From Altibacter sp. HG106 (GTDB taxonomy: Bacteria; Bacteroidota; Bacteroidia; Flavobacteriales; Flavobacteriaceae), in the NCBI RefSeq assembly GCF_028561755.1, contig NZ_JAQQTD010000002.1, forward strand, positions 434,001-498,000: a stretch of 64,000 nucleotides of DNA. Direction: 5' to 3'. Made by a program: the position numbers and the translations under genes. The first letter of the stretch is position 1. The number at the start of each line of letters is the position of its first letter. The notes under the pieces were generated by a model. It worked only from the letters and a program-made list of their open reading frames with translations, was not told the origin of the DNA and did no database searches. Positions 26,076 to 34,678 of the stretch are shown here, piece after piece.

Positions 26076-28094
26076 ATGAGCAGCAACACAGAATTTGACA
26101 ATATTTCGTTCGACATGCCGAAGAACCAAAGCAACGTCATTAAAGTTATTGGCGTAGGCGGCGGGGGAAGCAATGCGATCAATCACATGTTTAATCAAGG
26201 GATTAAGGGTGTCGATTTCGTGATTTGCAATACAGACGCACAGGCCTTAGAGAACAGTTCGGTCCCCATCCGAATTCAACTAGGGGTATCCCTCACTGAG
26301 GGACTTGGAGCAGGTGCCAACCCTTCCATCGGAGAACAGGCAGCAGTAGAGAGTATGGAAGAGATCAAGAACATGTTGACCACCAATACCAAAATGATCT
26401 TTATCACCGCGGGCATGGGCGGCGGTACCGGTACCGGTGCGGCTCCAATTATTGCCCGTATGGCGAAGGAGTTGGACATACTAACGGTGGGCATCGTGAC
26501 CATTCCGTTTCAGTTTGAAGGAAAAACGCGTTCTGAACAAGCCCAAATAGGCGTGGAGAAGCTCCGTCAGAATGTTGATTCCCTTATCGTTATTAATAAC
26601 AATAAACTGCGTGAGGTCTACGGAAACCTCGGTTTTAAAGCCGGATTTTCAAAGGCAGATGAGGTGTTAGCCACGGCTGCTCGTGGTATCGCTGAAGTAA
26701 TCACACATCACTACACTCAAAACATTGACCTTCGGGATGCCAAAACAGTACTTGCTAACAGCGGTACGGCCATTATGGGAAGTTCTAGTGCCAGCGGAGC
26801 TAGTCGGGCCAAAGAAGCGATCACCAAAGCCTTGGATTCGCCGTTACTCAATGATAATAAAATCAAAGGAGCTCAAAACGTATTGTTGCTTATCGTTTCG
26901 GGAACCGAAGAAATTACCATTGATGAAATTGGAGAGATCAGTGACCATATTCAGGATGAAGCCGGACACAGCGCCAATATCATCATGGGAGTTGGAGAAG
27001 ACGAATCGCTGGAAGGTACCATTTCTATTACGGTAATTGCTACCGGTTTTAATGCTGAACAGCAAGACGATATTGTCAATACCGAGTCGAAGAAGATCAT
27101 TCACACTTTAGAGGAAGAACAGCGCGCCGAGCAGCAGCTGAGTGTAAAGCCGGGTGCGACTCCGGTCGAGCTTCCGAAGAAGTCTACTTCTGAAGCAGCA
27201 CCAAAGAAGGAACCCGTGATTCGGCATACCCTGTTTGAAGAACCCGAAGCGACCGCGATACCTGCTTCCGAAGCGAAAAAACCACAGCAGAAAGAACTTC
27301 CGTTTGAAGGTTATATTCCTACCACCGATTTTATCAAGAATATTGAAGTAAGTTCAGAAGTGATCGATATCCATCACATCGCAGAATTTGAACAGTTGAT
27401 GATCAATGAGATCGATGTGAATACCTTCACCATCGTGCAGCCCAAAGTGAAAGAAGCAAAGAAAGAGGCGGAAATGCCGGAAGTTAATTCAAAGGCCGTA
27501 GAAGAAGATCAGATGCTTATGTTCGACCTCCCCGTGCATCCGAGTTCGAATAGCAAAGAGTCGCTTCAGGAACAGGAAGCGCAAGAGGATGTATTGACCG
27601 ATCGTGTAGAAGATATTGAAGTTCGTGACGCGGTAGAAATCGTTCCCGTAAACGAGTACAGTAACGAAGGCATGAAGCGGTACAGCCTTGACGATTACGA
27701 GGAGAAGGAACAGGAATTGCTTTCCGCAAAGCCGAAAACAGACAAGGACGGGGAGGAGGAAATCGTCTTTGAAAAACGCGTTGTAGCACCTGCGGAAGAA
27801 GAAGCTCCTGTGGACGATGATGCCCCTATCGACCCGCTCAATACGCCAATTTCAAAGTTATTGGCAGAACGAACAGAAGAGCGAAAGCGCAAGATGAAAG
27901 AATTTAATTATAAGTTTCGAAACAGTGCGTCGAAGATCGATGATATCGAAAAACAACCGGCGTACAAACGGATGGGCATCGAATTAGAAGATAGTGATCA
28001 AGAGACAAATATGTCACGAACATCTGTAAATACGGATGATGATGATATAGATTTGCGATCCAATAACTCATTCTTGCATGATAATGTAGATTAA
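26076..28094 (+). CDS. ftsZ: Cell division protein FtsZ with extended acidic C-terminal linker
   Basis: Tubulin-like GTPase forming the Z ring. The GTPase core occupies about 15-330, with GGGGSNA at 29-35 and the tubulin signature GGGTGTGA at 115-122. About 340 further residues form an acidic, Glu/Lys-rich linker with a short conserved region near 'PAYKRMGIELED'. At 672 residues it is almost twice the E. coli protein, which is usual in flavobacteria. It is the last gene of the cluster and is followed by a hairpin terminator and then by prophage-associated DNA. Confidence 0.96.
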   Translation: MSSNTEFDNISFDMPKNQSNVIKVIGVGGGGSNAINHMFNQGIKGVDFVICNTDAQALENSSVPIRIQLGVSLTEGLGAGANPSIGEQAAVESMEEIKNMLTTNTKMIFITAGMGGGTGTGAAPIIARMAKELDILTVGIVTIPFQFEGKTRSEQAQIGVEKLRQNVDSLIVINNNKLREVYGNLGFKAGFSKADEVLATAARGIAEVITHHYTQNIDLRDAKTVLANSGTAIMGSSSASGASRAKEAITKALDSPLLNDNKIKGAQNVLLLIVSGTEEITIDEIGEISDHIQDEAGHSANIIMGVGEDESLEGTISITVIATGFNAEQQDDIVNTESKKIIHTLEEEQRAEQQLSVKPGATPVELPKKSTSEAAPKKEPVIRHTLFEEPEATAIPASEAKKPQQKELPFEGYIPTTDFIKNIEVSSEVIDIHHIAEFEQLMINEIDVNTFTIVQPKVKEAKKEAEMPEVNSKAVEEDQMLMFDLPVHPSSNSKESLQEQEAQEDVLTDRVEDIEVRDAVEIVPVNEYSNEGMKRYSLDDYEEKEQELLSAKPKTDKDGEEEIVFEKRVVAPAEEEAPVDDDAPIDPLNTPISKLLAERTEERKRKMKEFNYKFRNSASKIDDIEKQPAYKRMGIELEDSDQETNMSRTSVNTDDDDIDLRSNNSFLHDNVD

Positions 28095-28242: not shown

Positions 28243-28260
28243 TGAATACGTTTTGAATTC

Positions 28261-28482
28261 TCACAACGCTCCGCGTTTTACATACGGATGGCTTCGCATC
28301 CTCACAACGCTCCGCGTTTTACATACGGATGGCTTCGCATCCTCACAACGCTCCGTGTTCTACATATTGATGGCTTCGCATCCTCACAACGCTTTGCGTT
28401 TTACATACGGATGGCTGCGCATCCTCACAACGCTCCGCGTTCTACGTACGGATGGCTGCGCATCCTCACAACGCTCCGCGTT
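28261..28482. repeat. 41-bp tandem repeat array, about 5.4 copies
   Basis: Units begin at 28261, 28302, 28343, 28384, 28425 and 28466 (partial), exactly 41 bases apart. Units 1 and 2 are identical. Each unit can fold into two hairpins: AACGC-TCC-GCGTT and GGATG-GCTTCG-CATCC. Several unit differences fall in loops, such as TCC to TTT and GCTTCG to GCTGCG. The rightward ORFs that cross the array only read the repeat and are not counted as genes. There is no spacer variation, so this is not a CRISPR array. Confidence 0.9.
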
Positions 28483-28493
28483 GAAAACAAAAA

Positions 28494-28535
28494 ACCCGCA
28501 TCTCTAAGTTCAAGCAAGCTTGACTTTTCGATACA
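28494..28535. repeat. Right copy of the ~43-bp direct repeat
   Basis: Counterpart of 28198-28242. Read leftwards, the stretch from the tRNA end at 28553 runs into AAAAAACC and later GGGTTTTTTG, so it may also be the old tRNA terminator. Confidence 0.6.
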
Positions 28536-28552
28536 GGTTTTTTGTTTATTCG

Positions 28553-28573
28553 TGACCGCGGGAGGATTCGAAC
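28553..28573 (-). other. tRNA 3'-end fragment, putative phage attachment site (attL side)
   Basis: Read leftwards this is TTCGAAT (T loop), CCTCC (3' half of T stem), CGCGGTC (3' acceptor strand) and A (discriminator). The expected 5' half of the T stem (GGAGG) is missing: the sequence diverges right after the loop. A lone tRNA 3' end at the border between host and phage genes is the usual product of integrase-mediated insertion into a tRNA gene. With this orientation the intact tRNA should be on the minus strand at the right prophage end, outside the window. Confidence 0.65.
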
Positions 28574-28623
28574 TGAAGAGTTAACATATTGATATTGAGT
28601 ATATGATTAGAATTGTTGTGGCA

Positions 28624-28941
28624 TTATTGTGTCAATATGCGTTTGAGTTTTTGGGAATTATCATCTAGACTTTTAAGTATCTCGCGAAGCGCTGCCTTGT
28701 TTGTAGCGATAATTTTGTGATGATCTTCAGGTGACCTGGAGGAATCTGTGTCAAATAACCAGTTAAGATCTACGTCCGGAAAGTGATGTACGAATTTCAT
28801 AAGTAGATCAAACGATGGATCCCTTACGTCGTTGAGCACCTTGTTCAACTGAATAGTGCTGATCTCATTTTGCTCGGCGAATTCTTTTTGCTTTAGTCCT
28901 TTTTCCTTGAGGACTTGTTTCATTTTGCTACCTATTCCCAT
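28624..28941 (-). CDS. Phage repressor-like XRE-family HTH protein
   Basis: A 105-residue protein with an N-terminal helix-turn-helix ('LKQKEFAEQNEISTIQLNKVL', about 16-36) and a short helical C-terminal part. It is divergent from the early genes, with an operator-like inverted repeat and two perfect -7 boxes between them, as for a lysogeny repressor. An internal ATG at 28923 (MKQVLKEKG) is an alternative start. Confidence 0.75.
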   Translation of the reverse strand: MGIGSKMKQVLKEKGLKQKEFAEQNEISTIQLNKVLNDVRDPSFDLLMKFVHHFPDVDLNWLFDTDSSRSPEDHHKIIATNKAALREILKSLDDNSQKLKRILTQ

Positions 28942-29384: not shown

Positions 29385-29960
29385 ATGGAAAGTAATAGTC
29401 AATCATTTAGACCTTATGCAGGAATGACCTGCACAGGTACGGAAATCTTCAAAGGCCCTGATGGTGGGTTAAGTATTATCGATAGAGGCCGAGTAAAACC
29501 ATTTTCGCAAGCGCCTATTTCAGTCATAGAAAAATTGCGATCGCAAATTTCACTAGATATTGAAGCGCAGAATGTGCTTCGGGAAATGCACCCTTGGGAT
29601 GCGAGTAACAGGATTGAGCAATTTGCTTGGTGTCGCTATGGAGGGCTAGATTTTAAACCCGATATAAAGGACGGCGAATTTCAGGAAGGAGAATTTCATA
29701 GTTGCCCAAATAGGGGTAAATGCAAGGGAGAAGGAATTCTCTGTAAGCTTCCTGTGTTTGGCGGAAGAAGACTTACCGGGAAAATGGTGGTGTTGATGCA
29801 GCATCTTTCAGGAACAGATACAAACGAAGTTATTGCAGAGAAAATGGATATGGCCATGGGGTCATTTCATTTACTCAAAAAGAAACTGTATGAAGCATTA
29901 GGCGGAATACAAACGAAGCAGGAAGTCGTGCACATTGCACGAGACCTGAACATTGTCTGA
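29385..29960 (+). CDS. Phage protein with Cys cluster and C-terminal HTH-like region
   Basis: A 191-residue protein. The middle carries a cysteine cluster ('CPNRGKCKGEGILCKLP', about 107-123), probably metal-binding. The C-terminal 60 residues ('GKMVVLMQHLSGTDTNEVIAEKM', 'FHLLKKKLYEALGG') resemble a LuxR/sigma-region-4-like helix-turn-helix. It follows the Cro-position gene by 10 bases. It is likely a transcription regulator of the phage; no named family is claimed. Confidence 0.55.
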   Translation: MESNSQSFRPYAGMTCTGTEIFKGPDGGLSIIDRGRVKPFSQAPISVIEKLRSQISLDIEAQNVLREMHPWDASNRIEQFAWCRYGGLDFKPDIKDGEFQEGEFHSCPNRGKCKGEGILCKLPVFGGRRLTGKMVVLMQHLSGTDTNEVIAEKMDMAMGSFHLLKKKLYEALGGIQTKQEVVHIARDLNIV

Positions 29961-30017
29961 GTTGAGATCCAGGCGATACGTTCTGATAACGCTATTTCTC
30001 AAATAGCACTAGATGGT

Positions 30018-31477: not shown

Positions 31478-34400
31478 ATGCCGTATATAAAGAAAATAAC
31501 GATTGATAAAGTTTTTGATACTGCGGACCTCGTAGAAGTGATTGGCGATTATGTCGCGCTGAAAAAAGCGGGAGCAACATTTAAAGGATTAAGTCCATTT
31601 GTAGAGGAGAAAACACCAAGTTTTATGGTTTCGCCGGCTAAGAGCATTTGGAAGGACTTTGCTTCTGGTAAAGGCGGAAATGATGCTGTGTCATTTTTAA
31701 TGCAGCACAAAGGAATTTCGTTTCCGGAAGCGATTGAAACGTTAGCGAAAAAATATGCTATTGAGATTGAATATGATGATAGCGATAACGCTAAAAAGTA
31801 TGCTGAGCTTCAGGAGAAAAAAGAAGAGCTGCGTCCTGTCCTAGAGGCAGTGATTAGAAAATATGAGGAAGCATTTCAAGAGCTTCCGGAAGATCACCCG
31901 GCAAAGATTGAAGCGTTTAAAAAACGAGAGTACACACAAGAGGTTATTGATGATTATCGGATTGGTTATGCGCCTGGTAATGGCTTTGTGTACAATCTCT
32001 GTAAGGAAGCGGGAAAAGTAGATGAGGCAAAGAAGTTAGGATTAGTTGGTGATATGCACGACAAGTGGGTAGATCGATTAATCTATCCGCTAGTTGAGCT
32101 TAAAGGAGGATCACTGCTTCCAGTGGGAATTGCTGGTCGTAGGTTGTCTGAGGAAAAGAAGTATGCTAAATGGATGAATTCTGTTGATAGTGATCTTTAT
32201 AAGAAGGACAAGTTTTGGTACGGTCTAGATAAAGCTCGTCAATCGATTGTTAAGGAAGGAGAGGCGTGGCTAGTTGAAGGCTATAATGATGTAATTGCTT
32301 GGCAGCGTTACGGTATTTTGAATACAGTAGCTTCTTCCGGAACTGCTATTTCTCTTCATCAAATTCGGATGCTCAAGAAACTTTGTGATCAGGTGGTGTT
32401 TTGTTTTGATCCTGATGCGCCTGGGAAAAAGGCAATGTTGAAGCACATACCACTTTTCCTGAAAGAAGGATTTCGTGTTTTCACGGTTTTCACAAAACCG
32501 CAATTGGATCCGGATGACTTTGTGCGTCATTGGGATATTAAGGATCGTATGGAAGGTCTGTTATACAGAATTTCTAAGATGAGGGCGTTTAGAAAAGATG
32601 GATTTGAGTTTCTAATGAAAAATTCATTTGAGAACAAAGATGAAGTAGAAATATACCAAGCTTCTTCAGAATTAATTGAAATCATTGCTCAGATATCAGA
32701 TGAAGCGCTGCGGAACATTTACATGTTATGGTTGCAGAAAGAAAGCGGAATAGGCAAAGTCGAACTGAAAAAACAGCTAAAGGAAAAACTTGATGTAAAA
32801 GTCGAGCGAAGCTTGAATGATTGGGATGGTGTCTACTATGAATTACCTACGGAGGTAAAGGTACCATTAGAGCAGTTACGGCCAGTAATTGATAGGTACC
32901 AACTTTTTCAAGCAAATAATCAAATTTGGATCCAGGAAAAGAATGGTCCGCCATTTACGTTTCGTTCTGTCTCAAACTTTCAGATTGAGATCATCCAGCA
33001 TATGCAGGATGAAAAATTTCCAATGAAGCTTGTGAGGATCCGAAATATTCATGGGCTGGAGAGAATATTCGATATGCAGTCTTCAGACATGAATAGTCCG
33101 CAAGCATTTGAGAATGCTGTTACAGCTCATGGTAATTTTAGATGGAAGGGAAGCCGGCCGGATCACGAGCTTTTAAAAACATTTCTCTTTGATGGAATGG
33201 GTACCGGTAGAAAAATTGATGTTTTAGGATGGCAGCCGGAAGGTTTCTGGGTTTGGAATAATAAGATAAGTGTTCCAAATGGTGAAAACATTGTCCTGGA
33301 CGACAATGGAGTTTTTGAAAAGGACGGAGTTTCCTATTACGTGCCTTCAGCGAATCAAATTTATAGAACGAATGCCTATAAATATGAAGCACAAAAAAAG
33401 GTGATGGCCATAGAACCAAAATTGAACTTCCAAAATTTTACGGCACAGGTTTTAAAAGTACACAGACAGCATGGAATGATGGGGATCTTATTCTCAGTTG
33501 CGAGTATTTTTCAAGATGTGGTGGTTAGTGATCTTAATTTTTTCCCGATGCTTTTCTTGTTTGGTCCTGCATCTTCCGGAAAGGATCAGTTGGCTGATGC
33601 CTGTCAAAGTTTTTTTGGCCAGCCACAGACCGCTATAAATTTAGAGGGAGGCGTTAGTACGATAAAAGCACAAGTGAGAGAGTTCGCTCAATTCTGTAAT
33701 ATGATATCGCAGCTATCAGAATATAAGAACGGAGATCCAAAGTTGGATGGGGTTCTAAAAGGATTGTGGGACCGTAGAGGATATAAACGGGGAAATATTG
33801 ATAGTCATGTGGGAACCGAAAGCATTCCAATTTTATCGGCAGTATTAATGACTGGTAACTATGCTCCAGATCAGGAAGCGCTTATTTCGAGATTCATATG
33901 GGAATTTATGGATAAGACAACGTTTTCAGATCAGGAAACGAAGGAATATGAACAGTTAAGCGATATGGTGAAGAAAGGCATTAGTGGTTATACTAATGTA
34001 TTTCTGAAGTATCGGGAGGCAGTAAAGAATAATTTCAAGTTTAAATATCGTGAGTTTAAGAACACACTGCAGCAGCGCCGTCCTGATGCCATGGCCAGAA
34101 TGATTTCAAACTTAGCTGTTCTAGGAACATTCTATCAGATGTTTCAGAATTCTCCGGAAATAACCTTTCCGTTCAGTTTTAATGATATGATGGAACATTT
34201 CGATAAGACTATCGATATGCAGATGAACAAATTGAGCTCTGCCAGCACGATCAATAGATGGTGGGATTGTTTCCTGGCTTCTATGAGGGGAACGTTGTCG
34301 GATCAGATTCAGCACGGGCGCGATCTTAAAGTGGACGGAGATCGGCTGTATTTCAATTTTACGAATTGCTACAACAAAGTTTCAAGGCAGTGGTACGTGC

Positions 34401-34678
34401 AATATCGTGACGCGGCACCGGCTAAAGGGGTTATGATGGATGCTTTGAAAAAGGATTCATCTTGGTTAGAGACGGTCGCGGCGTGCCGGTTTTCTCCTGG
34501 TAGAGATAGTAAGAGTACGAGTGCCTATGTTGTCAACTTGAATGAAATACCGGTTCAGGAAGAGATCAAACATGCTGTAGATTTTCAAATAAATGAAAAT
34601 GGACTATTTGATTCGTCGTCCCCTGCAACCCCTGAAAAAGAAAAAAATGATAAGAAGCAGGGCGGGTTGCCCTTTTGA
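31478..34678 (+). CDS. Phage primase-helicase (DnaG-like primase fused to P-loop ATPase)
   Basis: A 1066-residue replication protein. Residues 1-100 reproduce the host DnaG N-terminal fold, including lost zinc ligands (S39, V42, D60 and S63 at the CHC2 positions). The Toprim domain is at about 255-340 ('WLVEGYNDVIAW', 'CFDPDAPGKKA'). A linker region precedes a C-terminal helicase-like ATPase with Walker A 'GPASSGKDQ' at about 696-704 and a later 'LMTGNY' sensor-like stretch near 790. It therefore combines primer synthesis and probable DNA unwinding for phage replication. The N-terminal 400 residues are so close to flavobacterial DnaG that capture from a host is likely. Iteron-like repeats follow directly downstream. 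Confidence 0.88.
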   Translation: MPYIKKITIDKVFDTADLVEVIGDYVALKKAGATFKGLSPFVEEKTPSFMVSPAKSIWKDFASGKGGNDAVSFLMQHKGISFPEAIETLAKKYAIEIEYDDSDNAKKYAELQEKKEELRPVLEAVIRKYEEAFQELPEDHPAKIEAFKKREYTQEVIDDYRIGYAPGNGFVYNLCKEAGKVDEAKKLGLVGDMHDKWVDRLIYPLVELKGGSLLPVGIAGRRLSEEKKYAKWMNSVDSDLYKKDKFWYGLDKARQSIVKEGEAWLVEGYNDVIAWQRYGILNTVASSGTAISLHQIRMLKKLCDQVVFCFDPDAPGKKAMLKHIPLFLKEGFRVFTVFTKPQLDPDDFVRHWDIKDRMEGLLYRISKMRAFRKDGFEFLMKNSFENKDEVEIYQASSELIEIIAQISDEALRNIYMLWLQKESGIGKVELKKQLKEKLDVKVERSLNDWDGVYYELPTEVKVPLEQLRPVIDRYQLFQANNQIWIQEKNGPPFTFRSVSNFQIEIIQHMQDEKFPMKLVRIRNIHGLERIFDMQSSDMNSPQAFENAVTAHGNFRWKGSRPDHELLKTFLFDGMGTGRKIDVLGWQPEGFWVWNNKISVPNGENIVLDDNGVFEKDGVSYYVPSANQIYRTNAYKYEAQKKVMAIEPKLNFQNFTAQVLKVHRQHGMMGILFSVASIFQDVVVSDLNFFPMLFLFGPASSGKDQLADACQSFFGQPQTAINLEGGVSTIKAQVREFAQFCNMISQLSEYKNGDPKLDGVLKGLWDRRGYKRGNIDSHVGTESIPILSAVLMTGNYAPDQEALISRFIWEFMDKTTFSDQETKEYEQLSDMVKKGISGYTNVFLKYREAVKNNFKFKYREFKNTLQQRRPDAMARMISNLAVLGTFYQMFQNSPEITFPFSFNDMMEHFDKTIDMQMNKLSSASTINRWWDCFLASMRGTLSDQIQHGRDLKVDGDRLYFNFTNCYNKVSRQWYVQYRDAAPAKGVMMDALKKDSSWLETVAACRFSPGRDSKSTSAYVVNLNEIPVQEEIKHAVDFQINENGLFDSSSPATPEKEKNDKKQGGLPF

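Follow-up and report, generated by a model that had tools for sequence, protein, structure and literature searches.

The tRNA-like scar at positions 28552-28573 (minus strand) is very probably, at a probability of about 0.96 on the evidence of sequence comparison, the attL core of a 43.5-kb prophage, which entered the 3′ end of the host tRNA-Arg(TCG) gene by tyrosine recombination. Positions refer to the window, i.e., the whole 64,000-nt stretch analysed, which spans C18:434001-498000 of a genome in 25 contigs, so that the right border of the element falls 8.1 kb past the right end of the window; this border was studied in L004 (C18:490000-509500). Two copies of the core, an intact tRNA, an integrase and an empty site in a congener can each be read from the assembled letters. 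The arrangement is that of a tRNA-integrated prophage: a tRNA 3′ end is directly repeated at either border, the tRNA is intact at one of them, and a tyrosine integrase with its catalytic residues adjoins the attachment site.

The core, GTGACCGCGGGAGGATTCGAAC, is an exact 22-bp repeat with copies at window 28552-28573 and C18:506081-506102, 43,529 bp apart on the same contig. Within the window it is single at up to three mismatches, and none of 100 dinucleotide shuffles contained a match. Its minus-strand reading takes in the final G of the 5′ T-stem strand, then the T loop, the 3′ strands of the T and acceptor stems, a discriminator A and one C. The initial annotation had described these bases as a leftward tRNA 3′ end at 28553-28573, and the exact repeat extends that description by one base; the same annotation held that the 5′ half of the T stem was absent, which is true of most of that strand but not of its last G, which is present. 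ARAGORN found no intact tRNA inside the 64,000-nt window. As had been stated, the core lies between the division cluster and the first phage gene, after the stop codon (28094) of the host gene ftsZ (26076-28094, plus strand; Pfam Tubulin and FtsZ_C) and before an HTH repressor-like gene (28624-28941, minus strand; Pfam HTH_3, PHROG transcriptional repressor). On the host side it is followed by the native tRNA trailer (28459-28551, minus strand), which carries a terminator-like hairpin, has been severed from its tRNA by the prophage and is identical over 93 bases to the congener G001; the fold z of the trailer region (28452-28551) is -5.5. A tandem array (28260-28482) with a 41-bp unit in 5.4 copies also occupies the stretch between ftsZ and the scar, and visual comparison shows an array of similar kind, built from another unit, at the corresponding place in the congener. 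The Rfam family Clostridiales-1 scored 34.9 bits on the attL side at 28402-28554, below its gathering score of 48, and was taken as chance, and two weaker Rfam matches on this side were likewise judged to be chance matches on hairpins or repeats.

At the right border, the second core copy (L004:16082-16103) forms the last 22 bases of an intact minus-strand tRNA-Arg(TCG) (L004:16082-16156; ARAGORN, Rfam 61 bits). A 54-base stretch of this tRNA has no other match in the genome at three or fewer mismatches. Beyond it lies the host gene yqeY (L004:16167-16664, minus strand), and on the phage side, 45 bp inside from the tRNA and reading in the tRNA direction, is int, a 411-aa ORF (L004:14801-16036, minus strand) assigned as a tyrosine integrase by the three expected Pfam domains and by PHROGs; a possible ATG at L004:16006 provides an alternative start. 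Residues R280, K303, H356, R359, H382 and Y391, which we take to be the catalytic residues of the tyrosine integrase, are invariant across four relatives. A minus-strand tRNA with the same 3′ end, possibly an arginine tRNA and with an integrase beside it, was what the initial annotation had predicted for this border, and neither of the outcomes named there as contrary, i.e., no such tRNA at the right border or a full tRNA elsewhere with unrelated flanks, occurred.

That annotation had also proposed PCR for the empty site, which is instead present in the genome of the congener G001, where the order is yqeY, tRNA-Arg(TCG), an intergenic stretch and then ftsZ facing back. When the host flanks of our genome are joined, they reproduce the G001 tRNA (74/74 bases) followed by 94 identical bases. 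Identity with G001 ends 1 base past the discriminator at attR; at attL it covers none of the bases ahead of the core and 93 of those behind it. Because it breaks at the two cores, the scar and its trailer are host DNA, while the phage supplies the last part of the intact tRNA. This break at the core argues against the scar being a chance or unrelated tRNA-like fragment, e.g., a member of a repeat family, rather than a prophage end, as does its exact 22-bp identity with an intact tRNA 43.5 kb away with phage genes in between; such an origin, which the recurrence of tRNA 3′-end pieces behind tRNA-Arg(ACG) on contig C22 might otherwise favour, is in our estimation close to negligible. The pieces on C22 (L005:9770-10390) are further copies of parts of the tRNA-Arg(ACG) 3′ end within ~550 bp behind the intact tRNA-Arg(ACG), some of them followed, by eye, by hairpin-like stretches, and they may be either fossils of past integrations or a local repeat.

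From 57 yqeY matches, our own included, the best 30 loci (own included) were taken, giving 29 relatives, and in 26 of these a tRNA-Arg is situated within 1.5 kb of yqeY (25 TCG, 1 CCG). ftsZ, yqeY and the tRNA are co-directional in 21 of the 29, ftsZ is turned in one (the congener), the tRNA is absent in three, and no ftsZ is visible in four. The opposed orientation of ftsZ, which faces the tRNA in our genome and in G001 as against the single direction in the 21 relatives, points to a local rearrangement.

The in-window part of the prophage (28574-64000) continues to C18:506080, and the GC content of the element is 39.9%, compared with 45.5% to its left and 43.1% to its right, the latter over only ~3 kb. 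Common genes and gene order place the phage as a distant relative of the Duneviridae, which include Flavobacterium phage 6H and FPSV-D15 (both Unahavirus), laban6-1 (Labanvirus) and Cellulophaga phage Ingeline_1 (Ingelinevirus). With 62 ORFs of at least 50 aa picked from the element and a match cut-off of 1e-4, 25 of the 62 match 6H and 25 match laban6-1, the order being kept with the map inverted. Among these genes are a Duneviridae-type DNA primase (31478-34678, plus strand; Pfam DnaG and Toprim), with 45% identity to the Flavobacterium phages 6H, 2A and 1H, and an ORF (29385-29960, plus strand) that matches no Pfam family at 0.001 but is related to a regulator annotated as LuxR-type in laban6-1 (48% identity) and as a transcriptional regulator in 6H (53%). 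Primase, head and tail genes follow one order in our element, 6H and laban6-1. The integrase is 42% identical to that of FPSV-D15, 38% to that of laban6-1 and 31% to that of Ingeline, all filed under Duneviridae, and in these phages and 6H, as in ours, the order is repressor, attP and int, with int facing the tail-side genes. A tRNA-like 3′ end likewise occupies the gap between repressor and int in 6H, D15, laban6-1 and Ingeline. Ours is of the tRNA-Arg(TCG) type, whereas 6H, D15 and laban6-1 carry a 3′ end of the tRNA-Arg(TCT) type, having 17 bases in common with the tRNA-Arg(TCT) of locus L051; the 3′ end in Ingeline resembles, by eye, the TCG type.

This conserved layout bears on whether another or additional mobile element left the scar, with the present phage as a later guest or as one of two tandem elements. 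Relative G166 has three cores, placed at 0, 42.5 and 64.6 kb, which is the pattern expected of tandem elements, and our element carries a 19-bp repeat near each of its ends. Against this, only two core copies were found in all at our locus, the genes common with 6H and laban6-1 are collinear from one core to the other, which speaks against separate elements, and the repressor-attP-int order is that of FPSV-D15, 6H, laban6-1 and Ingeline; we regard a second element as very improbable and retain a single prophage that ends at the two cores.

Relatives of the integrase were sought in several ways. Peptide patterns returned one weak match among genome contigs (29%, residues 270-406), which was set aside, and none among viral contigs, and a search of 36 further genomes at E 1e-30 found no relative. 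A profile built from four integrases and applied at E 1e-70 detected them in at least 8 of 396 other genomes of a family sample and at least 3 of 394 others of an order sample, both being lower bounds because only four candidates per genome were scored. Upstream sequence is readable at 10 of the 11 loci so obtained (L055 starts too near the gene), and at all 10 int follows a co-directional tRNA, the integrase match starting within ~225 bases of it. Eight of these tRNAs are for arginine with three anticodons (TCG 2, ACG 4, TCT 2), and the others are one Phe and one Leu. Among the 11, only the two TCG loci are preceded by yqeY, so that their site is the same as ours. In a tree of 14 integrases, in which D15, laban and Ingeline were given anticodon labels on the strength of their 3′ ends alone, the sites are mixed: the TCG label requires four changes, no better than shuffles, and TCT three, while ACG requires two, a number as low in 22 of 500 shuffles, indicating some clustering. 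A search of the eight relatives with tRNA-Arg for a second, exact 17-base core gave scars without a tRNA at prophage distance in G166 and G030, only a second intact tRNA in G281, and no second copy in the remaining five. The three copies in G166 (C1:2969270, 3011806 and 3033839; L062, L066 and L067) are of one tRNA-Arg(ACG) core, with gaps of 42.5 and 22 kb, as two tandem elements would leave, and the second and third are without a tRNA.

The phage-side DNA between the tRNA and int folds into a hairpin with 10-bp arms (L004:16008-16061, minus strand). We compared the fold of the 100 nt that follow the tRNA end towards int with 60 control windows of our own element, which are mostly coding, and obtained z scores of -2.78 to -8.76 at all 14 phage att sites against a control mean of -0.34 (sd 1.03, lowest -2.91). 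All sites but D15/6H, whose -2.78 lies above -2.91, are below the lowest control window. Native host trailers, taken from all tRNA-bearing relatives but L024 (25 of 26), have a mean z of -4.7, and 24 of the 25 are below -2. We infer from this that each phage, having parted the tRNA from its terminator, supplies a replacement of its own. The hairpin could alternatively hide the ribosome site of int or be a palindromic protein site, and not terminate the tRNA transcript at all, a reading to which we give odds distinctly short of even. It gains from L048, where a possible int ATG lies inside a hairpin arm, and from our own hairpin, which is without a T run and has a 3′ arm ending one base before the possible int ATG, and these last two features keep a role in int translation in serious contention for our phage. 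It loses from the T run behind the hairpins of D15/6H, laban, L057 and L058, and from the native host trailers, which hold hairpins at the equivalent place.

Candidate Int arm sites were found at both ends of the element. The word TTGACACAA occurs five times in 75.5 kb against ~0.6 expected under even base use, and four of the five are at the att ends: one, with a related tandem copy, over the repressor stop codon (28614-28635, minus strand), as a putative left arm-type site, and three within the first int codons (L004:15934-15972, minus strand). The fifth is at C18:502049. By eye, similar repeats in other letters are present at both ends of D15, laban, Ingeline, G166 and G030. The longest common word between left and right arms was 8-11 in six same-phage pairs and 6-10 in 30 crossed pairs, a comparison that separates weakly, and a 20-base arm score did not separate the pair from our own phage at all. 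The 19-bp exact repeat TCTCAAATAGCACTAGATG, with copies at 29997-30015 behind the LuxR-like gene and at L004:16058-16076 directly beside attR, was also considered as a possible Int arm site. The left copy stands 1.4 kb away from the core, and at two or fewer mismatches an 18-base part of the repeat matches the genome in just these two places. Among the stretches compared, the longest word in common with the att-int gap was 13 in D15, 13 in laban and 10 in Ingeline, versus 20 in our own element. Sigma-70 promoter scans for int gave no evidence of a promoter (2 sites vs 1.2 in shuffles, and 2 vs 2.2).

Taken as one sequence of events, attP very probably brought along its own copy of the final tRNA bases, and so the crossover rebuilt a full tRNA at the right end while moving the host's own tRNA 3′ end and terminator to the left end. 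On the excised circle, the repressor and int would flank attP, both facing one way with the repressor upstream, and on integration int would exchange the repressor for the tRNA as its upstream neighbour. The phage hairpin would then act as the new tRNA terminator, insulating int, and the candidate TTGACACAA sites may bind the Int arm domain, letting Int regulate its own gene. Our locus has the layout that PMC2951348 describes as a frequent class (‘STI’), in which tRNA and int are co-directional, the tRNA preceding int on one strand; autoregulation is predicted for this class, whose model is KplE1 at argW. The repression of int by its own product that is predicted there for the class might operate here through the candidate arm sites in the int 5′ end. 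The E. coli KplE1 prophage (argW-intS) resembles ours in layout, having int behind a co-directional arginine tRNA and an att region that adjoins the int 5′ end; unlike in KplE1, our candidate arm sites sit within int codons. For the Duneviridae and the integrase relatives together we tentatively propose, at odds a little below even, one common cassette that consists of the repressor, an attP that includes the 3′ end of a tRNA-Arg, a substitute terminator borne by the phage, and an int with candidate Int arm sites in its first codons. Integration would cut the repressor-int transcription unit and put int behind a tRNA, with the hairpin separating both, and the integrase lineage would mostly keep to arginine tRNAs but hop between isoacceptors.

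The mode of integration is ordinary for phages; the ends of this prophage are well supported, and some regularities extend across the clade. As regards previous work on such phages, the word ‘tRNA’ is absent from the main text of PMC7077304, and the available text of PMC8776804 mentions no tRNA att site. The 22-bp cores define the exact ends of a prophage that has its relatives in an aquatic phage family, and they indicate the likely kind of integration site for 6H, laban6-1 and Ingeline. The clade offers a natural series on how integrases move between isoacceptor genes, and it also bears on how a phage keeps the tRNA gene that it interrupts properly ended.
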